Origin: an uncultured Oscillospiraceae bacterium
GTDB lineage: Bacteria; Bacillota; Clostridia; Oscillospirales; Ruminococcaceae
Length of the DNA: 5,254 nucleotides
NCBI GenBank assembly: GCA_934457235.1
Contig: CAKSHT010000147.1
Coordinates: 1-5,254 of the forward strand
Direction: 5' to 3'
The number at the start of each line of letters is the position of its first letter. Within the stretch, counting starts at the first letter, position 1. Positions 176-5,254 of this stretch are shown in pieces. Under the pieces are notes generated by a model. The model was not told where the DNA came from. It did no database searches and saw only the letters and a list, made by a program, of their open reading frames with translations. The position numbers and the translations under genes are program-made.

Positions 176-865
176 TTGACACTCGTTTTTTCGCTGCTGA
201 CAGCCACGATCATCGGCACCGGAGGATACTGGTTCACCAGATGGTACTTCAAAGTCAAGCACAGTGACGACCAGACAAAATATCCACGCAAAAAACGTAT
301 CCTATTTATTATGATCACACTGCTGATATTTGCTGCTGTATCAGTATGCCTGCCGCTCATGACGGATTTCCAGGAACGAAGCGTATTTGAGGTCCTCCGC
401 GCAGTATCAGCCATACTCGGTCTGTATTACGCAGCTGTTATCGACTGGAAGTTCCAGCTCATCCCCAACAGATATCTCCTGGGATTTCTGGCTCTGACTC
501 TCGTACTTCTGGCAGCGGAAGCACTGACGGATTTTTCCGGATTCCGTGCAACGATCATTCTGAGTCTTATAGGAAGTGCAGTATGTGGTGGTATTTTCCT
601 GCTCACAAATCTGCTCTCACATAATAGTCTTGGAATGGGAGACGTAAAACTTGTGTTCATTCTGGGACTTCTCCTGGGACTTGACGACACATTGGCGGGG
701 CTGCTGTGGACTTTTGTTTTCTCCGCCATTGCCGGTATAGTCCTGCTTATCAGGAAAAAGGCGAAAATGAAAACCAAAATAGCCATGGGACCGTTCTTTT
801 TTCTGGGATTTCTGTGCAGTAATATAATGTATATCATTTCGGGCTTTTCGGAGGTTCAGCTATGA
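176..865 (+). CDS. Prepilin peptidase, A24 family (CpaA/TadV-like)
   Basis: A 229-residue polytopic membrane protein, predicted to be the aspartic protease that cleaves the leader peptide of type IV/Tad prepilins at the cytoplasmic face of the membrane. Both catalytic aspartates are visible: D90 in VIDWKFQLIPNR, matching the D-x6-PN signature of the family, and D156 in GMGDVKL, matching G-x-GD-x-K. The C-terminal AMGPFFFLG (203-211) is the usual MGP turn before the last helix. Hydrophobic segments are at about 3-20, 43-62, 75-90, 100-117, 125-146, 158-190 (probably two) and 206-223. The N-terminal methyltransferase domain with its paired cysteines, present in PilD-type enzymes, is absent, as in the short CpaA/TadV branch. 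The start is TTG with AGGAG upstream. The stop overlaps the next start as ATGA, so translation is probably coupled. The substrates would be Tad pilins encoded outside the window and perhaps the gene just upstream. Confidence 0.9.
   Translation: MTLVFSLLTATIIGTGGYWFTRWYFKVKHSDDQTKYPRKKRILFIMITLLIFAAVSVCLPLMTDFQERSVFEVLRAVSAILGLYYAAVIDWKFQLIPNRYLLGFLALTLVLLAAEALTDFSGFRATIILSLIGSAVCGGIFLLTNLLSHNSLGMGDVKLVFILGLLLGLDDTLAGLLWTFVFSAIAGIVLLIRKKAKMKTKIAMGPFFFLGFLCSNIMYIISGFSEVQL
850..854 (+). promoter_or_regulatory. Ribosome binding site for the WG-repeat protein
   Basis: GGAGG lies 7 bases before the ATG at 862, inside the last codons of the prepilin peptidase gene. It supports the start that gives the 4-base ATGA overlap. 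Confidence 0.75.
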
Positions 866-2340
866 AGTTAGGCAAAACAATGGCGCTTGCCATGATAGGA
901 CTATCGGTAGTTTCAGCGGCCGCAGTCGCAATGTCATTCAGCTCATCGGGCGATGAAGCAAAAATGGAACAGCAGCTGCTCAGTCAGTATGAAATTTATG
1001 ACAAGAAAAAAATGTACCAGGAGGCGGCATCAACATACAAAGAACTTGTGAATGCACACCCGGACGACAATGAATTGTTCCGCACATATTCCGACTACTG
1101 CACTCAGCACGAGTTCTACGACGAATCCTACGCGATATGCAAGCAGCGTATCGACAGGCAGGCGGCATTGGAGGGACGGAACACCGAAACCGCTCTGCTT
1201 GGCGACGAGATCTGGCCCTTTGAAAGAGTACTGGAATACATGTACTCCCGCGAGGATGAACAGTTTTATACTGAACTGCACAGATACATCAGCACATTCA
1301 GTGCCGACAAATACCCGGAGGTAAGTAAATACCTGGCAGATCTTTACTCCGCCACCCGCGGAGATCTGAAGTACATGTCCGGAAAATTCACGGAGGTCAT
1401 GCCGTGGAACGACAGCTTCACCATCGCTCTGGATACCGACGGGCAGTACTCCGTGCTCAACTCCACGGGAGGTGCCGCAGGCACCAGCAAATACGGCAGG
1501 ATCTATTCATACAGCCCGTACGAGAACCTTATCGCATGCATACATGAGAACCAGATGGTTTACGTCAGCTTCTCCGGTTCGCGAAAGAGAGTTCCATTTG
1601 ACAAGGATAAAATGCAGCTTGTTAATTACGAATATCTCGGAACGTTCTCAAACGGAATAGCAAATATCCGGCTTTCTGCAGATGACTGGGGTTACATCAG
1701 CTGCGACCAGTCAGGAAGCATAAATCTTGTCATGGCAGGATATCAGTACGCCGCACCGATGAAAAATAATGTAGGCGCAGTTAAATCAGACAATGCATGG
1801 AAATTCTTCATACGCGGCAGGAATGGATTTACCGCTATTGACGGCAGCTACTACGACATATATCTCGATGAAAACCAGAACGCACTTTCCGGTTTCTATA
1901 TAAACGAAAACGGAGAAAACAAATACGTTCTTTCGGCATTCGTAAAAATGAAGTCTGGTGACGGCTGGACGCCGGTCATCATTCGTACCTCGGAGGACGG
2001 AGCAACAGTTACTCCGGCAGGCACGGAACAGTACACCGAAGTCACTCCGCTCACAGGATACGCCGCTGTGTGCTCCGGCGGAAAATGGAAGGTCATAGAC
2101 TACAACGGAAACACAGTCCTGACAACTGATCATGAAACGCTCGGCGCATACGGCTGCGGCTTTGTGGGCTTCAAATCCGGCGGAAAATGGGGATACATCT
2201 CCGTTGACGGAAAAACCCAAATTGATCCTGTGTTTGACGGGATAATTCCATTCAACAGCTCCGGCACAGCTTTCGTCAGCGAGAATAGTCTGTGGCACCC
2301 GATAAGGCTCAAGGAATATGTTTTCAAGGAGGAAGCCTGA
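862..2340 (+). CDS. Membrane-anchored or secreted TPR / WG-repeat protein
   Basis: A 492-residue protein of unknown exact role. Residues 1-26 (K3, K5, then a hydrophobic run to A23) form a signal peptide or signal anchor; there is no lipobox cysteine, and AVA-MS could be a signal peptidase I site. Residues about 35-105 form two TPR-like helix pairs (YDKKKMYQEAASTYKELV followed by HPDD, then FYDESYAICKQRID). From about 175 the protein becomes beta-rich and carries degenerate WG repeats: DDWGYIS (274-280), NAWKFFIRG (311-319), GGKWKVIDYNGN (406-417) and GGKWGYISVDGKTQIDP (440-456). The last is a textbook WG unit (KWGYID-x-x-GK-x-x-I-x-P-x-F/YD). Such repeats form propeller-like or solenoid surfaces in exported proteins of unknown ligand. 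It sits between a prepilin peptidase and an FHA gene, overlapping both, so it probably acts in the same envelope system, perhaps as an outside scaffold or sensor. The domain reading is firm; the function is not known. Confidence 0.8.
   Translation: MKLGKTMALAMIGLSVVSAAAVAMSFSSSGDEAKMEQQLLSQYEIYDKKKMYQEAASTYKELVNAHPDDNELFRTYSDYCTQHEFYDESYAICKQRIDRQAALEGRNTETALLGDEIWPFERVLEYMYSREDEQFYTELHRYISTFSADKYPEVSKYLADLYSATRGDLKYMSGKFTEVMPWNDSFTIALDTDGQYSVLNSTGGAAGTSKYGRIYSYSPYENLIACIHENQMVYVSFSGSRKRVPFDKDKMQLVNYEYLGTFSNGIANIRLSADDWGYISCDQSGSINLVMAGYQYAAPMKNNVGAVKSDNAWKFFIRGRNGFTAIDGSYYDIYLDENQNALSGFYINENGENKYVLSAFVKMKSGDGWTPVIIRTSEDGATVTPAGTEQYTEVTPLTGYAAVCSGGKWKVIDYNGNTVLTTDHETLGAYGCGFVGFKSGGKWGYISVDGKTQIDPVFDGIIPFNSSGTAFVSENSLWHPIRLKEYVFKEEA
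2326..2332 (+). promoter_or_regulatory. Strong ribosome binding site fixing the FHA start
   Basis: AAGGAGG, a near-perfect Shine-Dalgarno sequence, lies 7 bases before ATG 2340. It decides for this start over the in-frame GTG at 2292, which has no such site and would overlap the upstream gene by 49 bases. Confidence 0.85.
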
Positions 2341-3512
2341 TGTATAGCAACAAAATCAAGGTAATGACCGAAGGAGCACTGATAAAGCTCGTATACGAAA
2401 TGGCTCCGGGAGAGAGTATACGATGCTTTGATGACGGAATGCTGTCAAACAATACTATAAAGGGAATAGTAAGCTGCAGCGTGAGCTACGACCAGGAGAA
2501 CACCAGACTTATCTACAGTCTGAACGTCAAACCAAGCCTTGCCTCAATGCTGAGACAGAGCATGACAAAAAATATGGTGCTCTCTGTGTTCAGCGGCATC
2601 GCTTCAGTCATGGAAAATTCGCAGTCATTTATGCTCAGTGAAAGGAATTTCGTCCTTGACCCAAGGTATATTTTCATTGATACCGCAAATCATTCCGTTG
2701 AAATGATATACATTCCCACAAACGATGTATGCGGAGTATATCTCAGTCAGTTCATAAAGACCTGCATTTCACTGGGAGTTTTCGATACATCAATGGACAG
2801 CTCGTACCTTACGCGGCTGCTTAATTTCGTGAATACGCATACAGACGTTTCTGCCAGTGGAGTAAAAAAGCTGATAGACGAAATGATGAACAATAAGACG
2901 CCGGAAGCACCTGCGCGTCACCCGGTACAGCCCGCTCAGCAGTCTCAGTCCGCACAGTCAGCTCCGGCGCGCAGCTCACAGGCTATACCCTCATCTCCAG
3001 TCCCCAGGGAGAATCCGAATCCGCAGACTCCGCCGCCTGGCAAATCCAAGAACGGGATTTTCGGCTCTTTATTGGGCAAATCAAAGGAAACCGCTGCAAA
3101 GACTTCTGCCCCTGCTCCCGGCGCTCCTGGTTTTGCCGGGATAGCAATACCAGGCTCCGACCAGCTCATAATCGATAATGCTGCGTCAGTTAAGCAACCG
3201 CCCAAAGCCCCGCAGGCGCATCTTGTGGACAAAACCGGACGAAGCGCCATTATCGACAAATCACCGTTCTGGATAGGAAAAAGCAGACAGTCGCAGACTG
3301 CAAACAGTCTGATAATCGACGGAGACGCTGGCGTCAGCAAGAACCATGCCTACATAGAAAATTCAAACGGGAAATACTACATCGTTGACCCCAGATCCAC
3401 AAATGGAACGTTCATCAACGGAAAAATAATACCCAAAAACACCCGCACAGAGCTGAAAGACGGAATGAAAATAGGCATCTGGAAAGAAGAATTCATATTC
3501 AGGGTAAAGTAA
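2340..3512 (+). CDS. FHA-domain phosphothreonine-binding protein with N-terminal DUF6382-like domain
   Basis: A 390-residue, apparently cytoplasmic protein with three parts. Residues 1-180 form a folded domain with no metal or nucleotide motif that I recognise; by layout (SERNFVLDPRYIFID followed by VEMIYIP) it resembles the DUF6382 domain often found before FHA in Firmicutes, a call made from memory. Residues about 187-290 are a Pro/Ala/Gln/Ser-rich linker. Residues about 294-390 form an FHA domain: WIGKS (311-315), S333-x-x-H336, and STNGTFING (353-361), the signature that binds phosphothreonine peptides. Compared with Rad53 FHA1, the Ser, Thr and Asn contacts (S333, T354, N355) are present, while the usual Arg of the GR motif is Lys (K314). 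Its start overlaps the upstream stop by one base (TGATG) and a PP2C phosphatase gene follows after 4 bases. It is predicted to be the reader of a threonine-phosphorylation switch; likely ligands are discussed under the zinc-ribbon gene. Confidence 0.88.
   Translation: MYSNKIKVMTEGALIKLVYEMAPGESIRCFDDGMLSNNTIKGIVSCSVSYDQENTRLIYSLNVKPSLASMLRQSMTKNMVLSVFSGIASVMENSQSFMLSERNFVLDPRYIFIDTANHSVEMIYIPTNDVCGVYLSQFIKTCISLGVFDTSMDSSYLTRLLNFVNTHTDVSASGVKKLIDEMMNNKTPEAPARHPVQPAQQSQSAQSAPARSSQAIPSSPVPRENPNPQTPPPGKSKNGIFGSLLGKSKETAAKTSAPAPGAPGFAGIAIPGSDQLIIDNAASVKQPPKAPQAHLVDKTGRSAIIDKSPFWIGKSRQSQTANSLIIDGDAGVSKNHAYIENSNGKYYIVDPRSTNGTFINGKIIPKNTRTELKDGMKIGIWKEEFIFRVK
2898..3128 (+). other. Low-complexity Pro/Ala/Gln/Ser linker in the FHA protein
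   Basis: Codons for residues about 187-263 are rich in Pro, Ala, Gln and Ser (for example VQPAQQSQSAQSAPA and NPNPQTPPPG). The segment is predicted to be disordered and to tether the FHA head flexibly to the N-terminal domain. It includes a basic stretch, GKSKNGIFGSLLGKSK, of the kind that could be a short docking motif. Confidence 0.7.
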
Positions 3513-3516
3513 CGAT

Positions 3517-4284
3517 ATGAATTATAAATACTATCTGAAAAGCGACATCGGTACTACCCATTCTGTCAACCAGGATTCCGCTTTTGCGCTAGTGAAAAAC
3601 ACCGCACTTGGAAAGGCGTTCATAGGAGTCGTATGCGACGGCATGGGCGGCATGTCCGACGGGGATTATGCCAGCAATCTTGTTTCTGACACTTTATCGG
3701 AGTGGTTCAGCGAATTCAGCCCGGTCGATTCTGCCATTGCCATACAGGACCAGATCTTTCCGGAATGGGAAACACTTATAACCAGATGCAACCGAGATCT
3801 GTATGAACTCGGCGTAAATCAGCATGCCGCCATGGGGACTACCCTGTCCGTTCTTCTGCTGATCAACCGAGGTTATTTCATCACGCAGCTTGGCGACAGC
3901 CGCGTCTATCACCAGAGCGGGGATTCGCTTGTACAAATCACTCGGGATCATTCGTACGTGATGGATATGGTGCAGAAGGGCATGATGACGGAACGCGAAG
4001 CCTTTGCCTCAAAACAGCGCAATATACTCACGAAATGCATAGGCTGCACTGGTGAAGTAACTGCAGATTTCTACTGCGGCACGGTCGAACGCGGCGATAT
4101 ATTCTTGATGTCTACCGATGGATTCCACAGCGGTACCGATCTTGAAGAAATAGGCAGTATCATTGCTCCCGCCAGAGTTCTGAGACATTCGGGTCTGAAA
4201 AACAGCATACTGTCTGCAATAGATGAGCGCAAACGCAGTGGAGAAAAGGACAATATTACTGCACTTGCTGTTCAGCTGACATAA
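3517..4284 (+). CDS. PP2C-family Ser/Thr protein phosphatase
   Basis: A 255-residue single-domain protein, the usual length for bacterial PP2C enzymes (PstP/PrpC catalytic domain), with no membrane segment. Signature motifs appear in order: VNQDS with D20, VVCDGMGG with D41-G42, MGTTLS (106-111), LGDSRVY (125-131), ITRDHSYV (141-148), STDGF with D201, and the closing KDNITAL with D245-N246. The four aspartates (20, 41, 201, 245) are those that hold the two catalytic Mn/Mg ions, so the enzyme should be active on phosphoserine/phosphothreonine proteins. One oddity is that the phosphate-contacting Arg normally three residues before NQD is replaced by His (H15 in GTTHSVNQD). It begins 4 bases after the FHA stop with only a weak AGGG 12 bases upstream, so it probably depends on translation of the FHA gene. 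It is predicted to remove the mark that the FHA protein reads. No kinase gene is present in this window. Confidence 0.93.
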   Translation: MNYKYYLKSDIGTTHSVNQDSAFALVKNTALGKAFIGVVCDGMGGMSDGDYASNLVSDTLSEWFSEFSPVDSAIAIQDQIFPEWETLITRCNRDLYELGVNQHAAMGTTLSVLLLINRGYFITQLGDSRVYHQSGDSLVQITRDHSYVMDMVQKGMMTEREAFASKQRNILTKCIGCTGEVTADFYCGTVERGDIFLMSTDGFHSGTDLEEIGSIIAPARVLRHSGLKNSILSAIDERKRSGEKDNITALAVQLT

Positions 4285-4305: not shown

Positions 4306-4743
4306 ATGTTTTGCATAAAATGCGGCACCCCAATAAATAATGGTGCAAAATTCTGCCCGGTCTGCGGCGCTCCGCAGAACTCCGGCGTCAGTGCGGCTGC
4401 TCCGGATTCCGAAAGCGACACAGTGTATTTCGGCGCCCCTGAACAGACCGCCCCCGGTGAGGAGGACACTGTATTCATGGGAACTGCCCCTAACTCAGGC
4501 GAAGAATACAACTCTGAATCCGATACAGTAATGATGGGCGCAGCTCCGCAGAATAACAGCGCATTCCCACAAACCAATATTCCCGCCCCGACGAAGCCCA
4601 CAAAAAACAGAAACAATCGCAACGCCAGCTACGAAAGCTCCAATATGGGCATGTCTACGACGAAAAAAATTATAATAATCGCCGGACTTGTTATCATAGC
4701 TGCTCTGGTTGTATATCTTGTATTTGACTTCATGTCCGCGTAA
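4306..4743 (+). CDS. Zinc-ribbon, tail-anchored protein with three acidic DTV motifs (candidate FHA ligand)
   Basis: A 145-residue protein in three parts. Residues 1-22 are a zinc ribbon with two knuckles, C3-x-x-C6-G and C17-x-x-C20-G, spaced as in the small zinc_ribbon domains common in Firmicutes membrane proteins. Residues 30-118 are predicted to be disordered, rich in Pro, Asn and acidic residues, and carry three copies of an acidic D-T-V-x-x-G motif with threonines T39, T55 and T74. Residues 121-140 (IIIIAGLVIIAALVVYLVFD) form one transmembrane helix preceded by KK, which by the positive-inside rule places the ribbon and the DTV motifs in the cytoplasm. The protein would thus display possible phosphothreonine peptides at the membrane to the FHA protein encoded two genes upstream, with the adjacent phosphatase removing the mark. 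The membrane and zinc readings are strong; the phosphorylation role is inference. It closes the run of tightly spaced genes. Confidence 0.8.
   Translation: MFCIKCGTPINNGAKFCPVCGAPQNSGVSAAAPDSESDTVYFGAPEQTAPGEEDTVFMGTAPNSGEEYNSESDTVMMGAAPQNNSAFPQTNIPAPTKPTKNRNNRNASYESSNMGMSTTKKIIIIAGLVIIAALVVYLVFDFMSA
4405..4548 (+). repeat. Three coding repeats of the acidic D-T-V-x-x-G-A-P motif
   Basis: Copies are at 4405-4440 (DSESDTVYFGAP), 4456-4491 (GEEDTVFMGTAP) and 4513-4548 (SESDTVMMGAAP), with starts 51 and 57 bases apart. The shared core is an acidic lead, D-T-V, two hydrophobic or aromatic residues, G, then A-P. Codons differ between copies (DTV is GAC ACA GTG, GAC ACT GTA, GAT ACA GTA), so the peptide is conserved while the DNA has diverged. 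This argues against a recent slippage duplication. Confidence 0.85.
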
Positions 4744-4754
4744 ATCACGATAAT

Positions 4755-5254
4755 CACTGCGTTGACATCGACATCACCACCGGATTACAGCACTGCTACG
4801 CAAGACTTGCGGAGGACGTCAAGAGCAAATATGGCGTGGTTCCCACGGGCTACGGCGCAATGGGAATCTCCGGCATGATGCACGGCTACATGGCGTTCGA
4901 CAAGGAAAATAATCTGCTCGTTCCGTTCCGCACATGGAGAAATACCATCACCGAGCAGGCGGCTTCCGAACTGTCGGAACTTCTCGGATTCAATATCCCC
5001 CAGCGCTGGAGCATCGCGCACCTCTACCAGGCGGTACTCAATGGCGAGGAGCACGTCAAAAACATCGCGCACATCAACACGCTCGCAGGATATATCCACT
5101 ATCAGCTGACCGGAAAACGCCAGGTCGGCGTTGGCGAGGCCTCCGGAATATTCCCGGTGGACGGCGATAACTACAATGCCGGATATATCGCAAAGGTAGA
5201 CGCGCTCCTGGAGCAGAAGAGATTCCACGGAAAGCTCAGCAACATTCTCCCGGC
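4755..5254 (+). pseudogene. FGGY-family carbohydrate kinase, N-terminally truncated and running off the window
   Basis: From about 4755 the frame whose codons begin at multiples of 3 encodes kinase-like protein to the window end without a stop. Its clearest mark is GAMGISGMMHGYMAFD, matching the SGQMHG substrate-site segment of xylulokinases, followed by FRTWRN, AHLYQAV, INTLAGYIHYQLTGKR and GEASGIFPVDG, the order seen in FGGY sugar kinases. The N-terminal ATP phosphate-binding segment (D-x-GT-type, normally the first 10-20 residues) and the residues up to about 40 before MHG are missing. The coding sequence of the zinc-ribbon gene, in another frame, occupies that place. The frame is open only from 4728, has no ATG before 4860 and no ribosome binding site. 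Hand counts of five 60-base lines here give about 57% GC against about 45-47% in two sampled lines of the upstream genes. It may be a gene remnant, a recombination product or an assembly join. The sugar substrate cannot be assigned. Confidence 0.7.

Follow-up and report, generated by a model that had tools for sequence, protein, structure and literature searches.

Three conserved threonine units of a zinc-ribbon protein with a predicted membrane helix are candidate ligands of a neighbouring DUF6382-FHA protein

Main finding

The window (the whole stretch of DNA that was analysed, 5,254 nt) encodes a zinc-ribbon protein with three acidic D-T-V units in its linker, which we regard as candidate phosphothreonine ligands of the FHA protein encoded nearby. 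Sequence comparison partly supported this reading, since similar units occur in the FHA linkers of relatives, behind zinc ribbons and in kinase-adjacent tails, and since the units of the window match the activation loops of kinases from related loci. The zinc-ribbon protein is probably a membrane-anchored dock with three sites, which would be written by a kinase, read by the DUF6382-FHA protein and erased by a PP2C phosphatase.

Gene content of the window

The + strand of the window carried a tight run of five genes:

176..865, + strand: A24 type IV prepilin peptidase (PF01478, 47 bits, cut-off 26.5)
862..2340, + strand: WG-repeat protein (PF14903, 45.7 bits, cut-off 25.6)
2340..3512, + strand: DUF6382-FHA protein, 390 aa (PF19909, 75.4 bits; PF00498, 56.3 bits)
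3517..4284, + strand: PP2C-type Ser/Thr phosphatase, 255 aa (PF13672, 43.1 bits, cut-off 24)
4306..4743, + strand: zinc-ribbon protein with three DTV units, 145 aa (PF13240, 32.6 bits, cut-off 25)

The prepilin peptidase and WG-repeat genes overlapped by 4 bases, and the stop of the WG-repeat gene shared one base with the start of the FHA gene. Four bases separated the FHA and PP2C genes (the PP2C gene starts 5 bases past the last base of the FHA gene), and 21 bases lay between the PP2C and zinc-ribbon genes. These overlaps and short gaps suggest that the five genes form a single operon. The FHA and PP2C genes (2340..3512 and 3517..4284) that a first-pass annotation of this DNA had placed just upstream of the zinc-ribbon gene were both supported by Pfam. 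Against the NCBIfam Stp1 model, the phosphatase scored 169.9 bits, under the cut-off of 230.

No protein kinase was found in the 5,254 nt of the window, neither a TsxC ATPase nor a WXG100 gene was seen there, and Pfam revealed no ubiquitin-like gene in the window ORFs submitted to it. From the Tad or type IV pilus repertoire, the window contained the prepilin peptidase; Flp pilin and TadB/TadC genes were not seen in it. A 50-residue fragment ahead of the prepilin peptidase had no clear match. Directly after the stop of the zinc-ribbon gene, a frame resembling FGGY/XylB sugar kinases (4744-5252) lacked its beginning, as the first profile position matched was 54 of 481. The frame hides whichever gene would normally come next, and it may reflect a rearrangement or a join made during assembly.

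Three units in the linker of the zinc-ribbon protein

The zinc-ribbon protein contained the following features, with unit scores from a matrix of kinase activation loops described below:

4306..4377, + strand: zinc ribbon, residues 1-24, CxxC...CxxC (translation and Pfam)
4417..4434, + strand: unit 1, DTVYFG, residues 38-43, with T39 (T in 8/8 aligned rows; kinase-loop matrix 9.6)
4465..4482, + strand: unit 2, DTVFMG, residues 54-59, with T55 (T in 8/8 rows; matrix 11.4)
4522..4539, + strand: unit 3, DTVMMG, residues 73-78, with T74 (T in 8/8 rows; matrix 11.4)
4621..4668, + strand: conserved juxtamembrane block, residues 106-121 (85% mean identity, 10/16 columns invariant)
4657..4737, + strand: predicted membrane helix, residues 118-144 (AlphaFold)

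The codons of T39, T55 and T74 begin at 4420, 4468 and 4525, which agrees with the places given for these threonines by the first-pass annotation. The units were preceded by SES, GEE and SES, respectively, that is, by acidic residues together with serine or glutamate. When residues 25-112 were shuffled 200,000 times, 625 shuffles contained one [DE]TVxxG and none contained two or more. The three units exceed chance expectation, and the repeat first noted by eye is genuine.

The AlphaFold model, of low confidence (mean pLDDT 60.3), had no regular structure between residues 25 and 117, in keeping with a disordered linker ahead of a single C-terminal membrane helix. The linker was previously described as disordered and cytoplasmic; the prediction is consistent with the former, and the zinc ribbon together with the basic residues ahead of the helix suggests that the linker faces the cytoplasm.

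Conservation of the units

A protein search with the zinc-ribbon protein yielded 9 homologues, and 7 relatives were aligned with the window protein (8 rows). The eight rows do not include two of the homologues: P0012, a fragment with the third unit only, and P0013, which has the C-terminal part alone in common and none of the units. All three units were present in all eight rows, and T39, T55 and T74 were invariant (24 unit copies). The departures within units were D to K in unit 2 of P0010 and V to I in unit 3 of P0007; unit 3 read DTVFMG in five of the seven relatives and DTIFMG in one. The spacing between units ranged from 13 to 24 residues. Mean identity was 97% in the unit columns, with 14/18 invariant, versus 56% in the linker outside the units, which drifts in sequence and length and has 3/63 columns invariant. 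The other linker threonines (T48, T60, T90, T96 and T99) were 38-50% conserved. Judged from this alignment, the units are under constraint.

The codons also differed between the units (gac aca gtg tat ttc ggc in unit 1, gac act gta ttc atg gga in unit 2 and gat aca gta atg atg ggc in unit 3). The fourth unit position was Y in unit 1 of all eight rows and F or M in units 2 and 3, which indicates that the copies are old and distinct. A trailing G-A-P had been counted as part of the motif; its G was kept in all three units of 8/8 rows, but A and P varied. The residue three places after the threonine was F in unit 1 (L in one relative) and M in units 2 and 3. It is hydrophobic, as had been pointed out, but F and M lie outside pTxx[ILV], which is listed with pTxx[ED] as an FHA ligand class in the available part of a review (PMC8786283), and they are therefore variants with respect to that list.

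The units were not the only conserved part, contrary to an expectation attached to the first-pass annotation. Identity reached 85% in the juxtamembrane block and 92% in residues 122-145 (helix and C-terminus), with 80% in the ribbon, and the zinc-ribbon protein therefore does more than present units. T118, which adjoins the helix, was also invariant (8/8 rows). Within the juxtamembrane stretch (4621-4668), S108, S111, S112, S117 and T118 were all invariant in the eight rows; these residues may be additional phosphorylation sites or form a packing surface.

The DUF6382-FHA protein

The FHA protein began with a DUF6382 match (residues 26-129; PF19909, 75.4 bits, cut-off 26.7), continued with a predicted disordered linker (residues 187-289, AlphaFold pLDDT under 50) and ended with an FHA domain:

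3273..3476, + strand: FHA domain, residues 312-379, with K314, S333, H336 and N355 (Pfam PF00498, above the gathering score)

With its N-terminal DUF6382, its C-terminal FHA domain and the adjacent PPM phosphatase gene, the protein has the make-up of DUF6382-FHA (TseJ-type) proteins. The predicted FHA fold resembled the FHA domains of EmbR, DgcB, GarA, OdhI and FhaA, and nearly all of the structure matches shown covered residues 286-390. The residues of the SxxH and NGT binding loops (S333, H336, N355 and T357) were present in 16/16 aligned sequences. The Arg that usually follows the first Gly of the FHA domain was replaced by Lys314; Lys stood there in 15 of the 16 sequences and Arg in one, and the related loci described below had Lys at this position in 26/26 scorable cases (8 were not scorable). 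The domain thus has the Ser and Asn loops of phosphothreonine binding and lacks the conserved Arg after Gly. It did not belong to the GarA/OdhI family by the NCBIfam OdhI model (20.8 bits, cut-off 200). In the DUF6382 part (2340-2894), a c-Abl kinase chain appeared at Foldseek rank 49 (246 columns, rmsd 9.8), which is a weak hint that DUF6382 may be kinase-like.

The linker of the window's FHA protein contained no unit and no [DE]TT. A search with this protein gave 15 homologues, eight close (66-99%) and seven more distant. With a relaxed unit pattern, the linkers of the window protein and its eight close homologues had no unit (0/9), and the top score of these nine linkers in the kinase-loop matrix was 4.4 (DTVSAV, P0021). 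Five of the seven distant homologues carried linker units by the relaxed pattern: DTIIG in P0022, ETVML in P0023 and P0025, ETSVL twice in P0026 and ETTVL twice in P0027. P0024 and P0028 had none. The matrix score was at most 3.0 in the linkers of P0022, P0023 and P0025, despite their relaxed-pattern units. A linker segment of the window clade (3138-3176), IPG-x-[DN]-Q-L-I-[IM]-D, was kept in 9/9 sequences and absent from the seven distant ones. It could be the remnant of a lost cis unit, as Q occupies the position of the unit T.

Units in related FHA loci

Around matches to the FHA protein, we took 40 loci (5.6 to 19.9 kb long), which contained 34 proteins that matched both the DUF6382 and the FHA profile. 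A unit ahead of the FHA domain was found in 27/34 of these by the relaxed pattern (7/34 had none) and in 21/34 by a stricter one. The difference between 27/34 and the 0/9 of the window protein and its close homologues gave a Fisher p of 2e-5, with rows that are not independent. By the strict pattern, DUF6382-FHA proteins contained 22.5 units per 10,000 residues, compared with 1.3 in 489 other proteins of the loci, where the matches fell mostly in kinases and tail proteins. The relaxed pattern was drawn up after tail and linker sequences had been inspected, and proteins in the compared loci are kin (for example L162/L163 and L161/L164); the Fisher values given here and below (2e-5 and 1e-16) are therefore optimistic. 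Loci with FHA and PP2C genes and no DTV protein, which the first-pass annotation had named as contrary evidence, do literally occur in many distant relatives; in most of these, a tail protein or the FHA linker has the units instead.

Nine FHA proteins of the 40 loci, of which seven had a DUF6382 match and two did not, held a zinc ribbon in the linker; one or two units came between ribbon and FHA domain in six of them. In the L169 protein, DUF6382, zinc ribbon and FHA domain were all found by Pfam. The zinc-ribbon protein of the window likewise has a ribbon and then units, but a predicted membrane helix replaces the FHA domain. It looks like a ribbon-unit cassette set free from the FHA chain, as the same layout occurs fused to FHA domains; this reading comes from the order of parts in the compared sequences. 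The nearest blastp match of the window protein among the locus proteins was L179_5 (E 4e-4, ribbon and linker). Between its FHA and PP2C genes, L175 encoded three zinc-ribbon proteins as separate chains with TTVL units. Among the 13 N-terminal zinc-ribbon proteins of FHA loci, a strict unit was confined to these three, and 10/13 had none. That the parts are fused in some genomes and separate in others suggests that they work together. Among control zinc-ribbon ORFs, 11/141 had one strict match each, and the four in which the site could be read had NGTTVL[LM]W, which is not an acidic linker unit.

The gene surroundings varied among the related loci. Some had Tad-like genes and some a type VII-like ATPase; by Pfam, L166 contained an Flp1-like protein and L172 two T2SSF proteins, and L169 also encoded an FtsK/SpoIIIE-FHA protein.

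Kinases, activation loops and tail proteins

A kinase with a readable activation loop was present in 20/33 DUF6382 loci, typically after the PP2C gene. The L166 kinase was assigned to Pkinase by Pfam and NCBIfam, nearest to the PknB-type PASTA kinases but under that cut-off. Twenty-five loops were extracted and L153_15, with a non-kinase-like loop, was dropped; the remaining 24 shared [DEN]-T-x-x-[LMIF]-G-T. A threonine-scoring matrix built from these 24 kinase loops alone gave 11.4 for T74, 11.4 for T55 and 9.6 for T39, and at most -4.0 for the other eight threonines of the zinc-ribbon protein. It thus singled out the unit threonines, and no others among the eleven, and each of the three exceeded 9.3, the 99.9th percentile of the background (11,298 threonines). 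A site above this level occurred in 17/34 DUF6382-FHA linkers, compared with 1.5% of length-matched random segments, and the other 17/34 had no such site. The matrix test is free of the post hoc pattern and is still affected by kinship.

The small membrane protein encoded right after the kinase carried a unit in 17/20 cases, compared with 2/116 control membrane ORFs of 120-450 aa (Fisher 1e-16 with the relaxed pattern and related proteins). These tail proteins had one to eleven units each, and ten had two or more. The strict matrix passed just 4/29 ORFs directly downstream of kinase matches, since the G of the loop is mostly replaced by D, N, S or T in tail units. In L179 (10923-12044), the membrane protein after the kinase held eleven TTVL-like units, many in SQATTVL.NSPDEY-like repeats. 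Many tail proteins (for example L142_9, L168_2 and L172_2) ended in an [IV]HT[DN]E[VI]I-like segment, separate from the units. A further protein, P0029 (827 residues), had an FHA domain, taken from a precomputed Pfam list, between two kinase domains.

Locus by locus, no clear covariation of units and kinase loops was apparent by eye. DTVSLGT loops (L146, L150, L167 and L169) accompanied mostly TTVL or TSVL units, and L179 had a DTINMGT loop beside ATTVL tails; L166, with a DTVCLGT loop and QTVIL/QTVVL units, fits covariation. We therefore read the resemblance of unit and loop as a consensus common to kinase and FHA domain and not as exact copying.

Searches for the lineage of the window

For the kinase of the window's clade, a loop near DTV[FYM][FM]GT is predicted. 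It was not found among 120 listed of 7,985 matches, whose loops read DTTCLGT (106), DTVCLGT (7), DTVSLGT (5) and DTICLGT (2); these 120 are skewed towards the relatives of the probe itself. A megablast of the window against a plasmid collection gave no match, and a scan of IMG/VR for the FHA protein returned 8 stretches that fit a pattern, but no relative was confirmed among them. Scanning contigs with the zinc-ribbon alignment gave 107 loci, of which 80 were kept. Their matches lay mainly in the ribbon, and tblastn found the window's FHA protein in 0/80, so that no locus of the window's clade was found there. Across 394 genomes of the order, a further search returned 17 matches, distributed over 16 genomes; these were again other zinc-ribbon proteins.

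Proposed mechanism and alternative explanations

We propose that T39, T55 and T74 are phosphorylated by a kinase of the PknB type, whose gene presumably lies beyond the window and which would act on these threonines owing to their likeness to its own activation loop. The phosphorylated units would then be bound at the membrane by the FHA domain of the DUF6382-FHA protein, the product of the gene two places upstream, and the neighbouring PP2C phosphatase would likely erase the signal. In most of the relatives, the cis unit beside the FHA domain could close the protein on itself; placing the cassette on a membrane protein, away from the FHA chain, would turn such an intramolecular switch into a recruitment switch. 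The output may concern the prepilin peptidase and a Tad-type pilus, given that the window encodes such a peptidase and that Flp-like and T2SSF genes occur in related loci. Several observations count against the dock: Lys in place of the usual Arg, F and M at +3, the absence of a kinase from the window, the tails missed by the strict matrix, FHA linkers and zinc-ribbon proteins without units, and the lack of covariation.

The units match the kinase loops in register (D-T-[TV]-x-[LMF]-G), and this would also suit a role mainly for the kinase, with the units as loop look-alikes that act as a substrate sink or pseudosubstrate while the FHA protein binds the kinase's own loop. A precedent is MupFHA-PknQ, where, in the part of the report available, the FHA protein interacts with the kinase, suppresses its autophosphorylation and docks on activation-loop residues (PMC4238996). 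We consider this unlikely in view of the 27/34 relatives that hold units beside the FHA domain in the same chain, and of the tail units, which mostly continue with D, N, S or T and not with G-T, as expected of a consensus held in common and not of a copy. Some of the same features could instead belong to a structural membrane adaptor that functions through its ribbon, juxtamembrane block and helix, with the DTV repeats as an ordinary repetitive linker. The high identity of the juxtamembrane block (85%) and of the helix with the C-terminus (92%) fits such an adaptor; zinc-ribbon proteins that combine hydrophobic segments with a variable linker were found repeatedly, and 10/13 N-terminal zinc-ribbon proteins in FHA loci lacked a strict unit. 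An ordinary linker does not account for unit columns that form the most conserved class of the protein (97%) while the intervening linker drifts. The 80 loci fetched with the zinc ribbon contained no ORF under 700 aa with two units, and the 11/141 single strict matches in control zinc-ribbon ORFs were non-acidic in the four readable ones (NGTTVL[LM]W). We give the adaptor little credence.

Least probable, in our judgement, is that the units are read unphosphorylated, as an acidic stretch with a V-hydrophobic-hydrophobic strand that is added to a partner such as the ubiquitin-like protein of a linked secretion system. Their composition is like that of acidic-hydrophobic beta-strand ligands of this kind. 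Type VII loci with DUF6382-FHA proteins contain ubiquitin-like components, according to the available part of one report (PMC11217815); the Pfam survey of window ORFs identified no such gene. Strand addition leaves unexplained both the invariance of the threonine in all 24 unit copies and the tracking of the units with FHA, PP2C and kinase genes. The dock remains our preferred reading.

A broader generalization is more tentative, and we hold it to be possible though somewhat less than evenly likely: the unit may be a transferable 'activation-loop tag', [DE]-T-[TV]-x-[LMF]-G, used in FHA linkers, membrane tails and zinc-ribbon proteins of clostridial pilus and type VII loci. If so, one kinase would write the tag and one FHA protein would read it on the kinase, the switch and the membrane dock, and the freed cassette of the window's lineage would turn a self-closing switch into a recruitment platform. 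DUF6382-FHA, PP2C and kinase genes recur in the related loci, for which the unit is a concrete candidate FHA ligand, and a recognisable unit offers a sequence-based route to finding partners. The window's lineage is a natural experiment, with the unit lost from the FHA protein and three units on a predicted membrane protein, and cis and trans use of the tag are therefore directly testable. We found no published description of the unit as a common ligand in the accessible FHA, type VII secretion, activation-loop and TssL literature (supplements and most subscription journals lay outside this search), and no literature match for 'ETTVL' with FHA.

Comparison with known systems

GarA and OdhI of Actinobacteria are close parallels: the predicted FHA fold resembles theirs, and relatives of the window's FHA protein recall them by acidic-T-T units that precede the FHA domain within one chain. 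In GarA, the phosphosite lies in the same chain as the FHA domain, and in both GarA and OdhI the chain closes on itself through the phosphorylated unit. The window differs in that its units are on another protein and its own FHA linker has neither a unit nor an acidic-T-T, so the earlier comparison with GarA is a loose one. Binding in trans has a parallel in FhaA and Rv3910, for which we know of no zinc ribbon or repeated units. There too, an FHA domain meets the intracellular part of another protein, as given in the accessible description of the complex of the FhaA FHA domain with the Rv3910 intracellular domain (PDB 3oun).

In type VII secretion variants, TseJ/TsfJ/TsjJ are DUF6382 and FHA components accompanied by a phosphatase, a kinase and TseK/TseH, and TseK and TsdH/TseH have a single helix and short unstructured cytoplasmic stretches, as far as the available part of the report goes (PMC11217815). 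To the same extent, the window is alike in its DUF6382-FHA protein next to a PPM/PP2C phosphatase, and TseK and TsdH/TseH resemble the unit-bearing tails after the kinase in related loci. Unlike these variants, as described there, the window has a prepilin peptidase, a WG protein and a zinc-ribbon protein after the PP2C gene. No ligand for the FHA domain of a DUF6382 protein was named in the available part of the DUF6382 literature that we found (PMC11217815).

A functional precedent is type VI secretion in Agrobacterium, where, according to the part of the report available, the kinase PpkA phosphorylates T14 of the membrane protein TssL, Fha then binds, and Arg30 and Ser46 of the Fha FHA domain both matter when mutated (PMC3953482). 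As far as this account reaches, the likeness lies in the set of a kinase, an FHA protein and a membrane protein with a cytoplasmic threonine, which for the window is proposed from sequence. TssL, by the same account, has one mapped site and is a core protein of a secretion system; the window pairs three predicted sites on a zinc-ribbon protein with a prepilin peptidase gene run.
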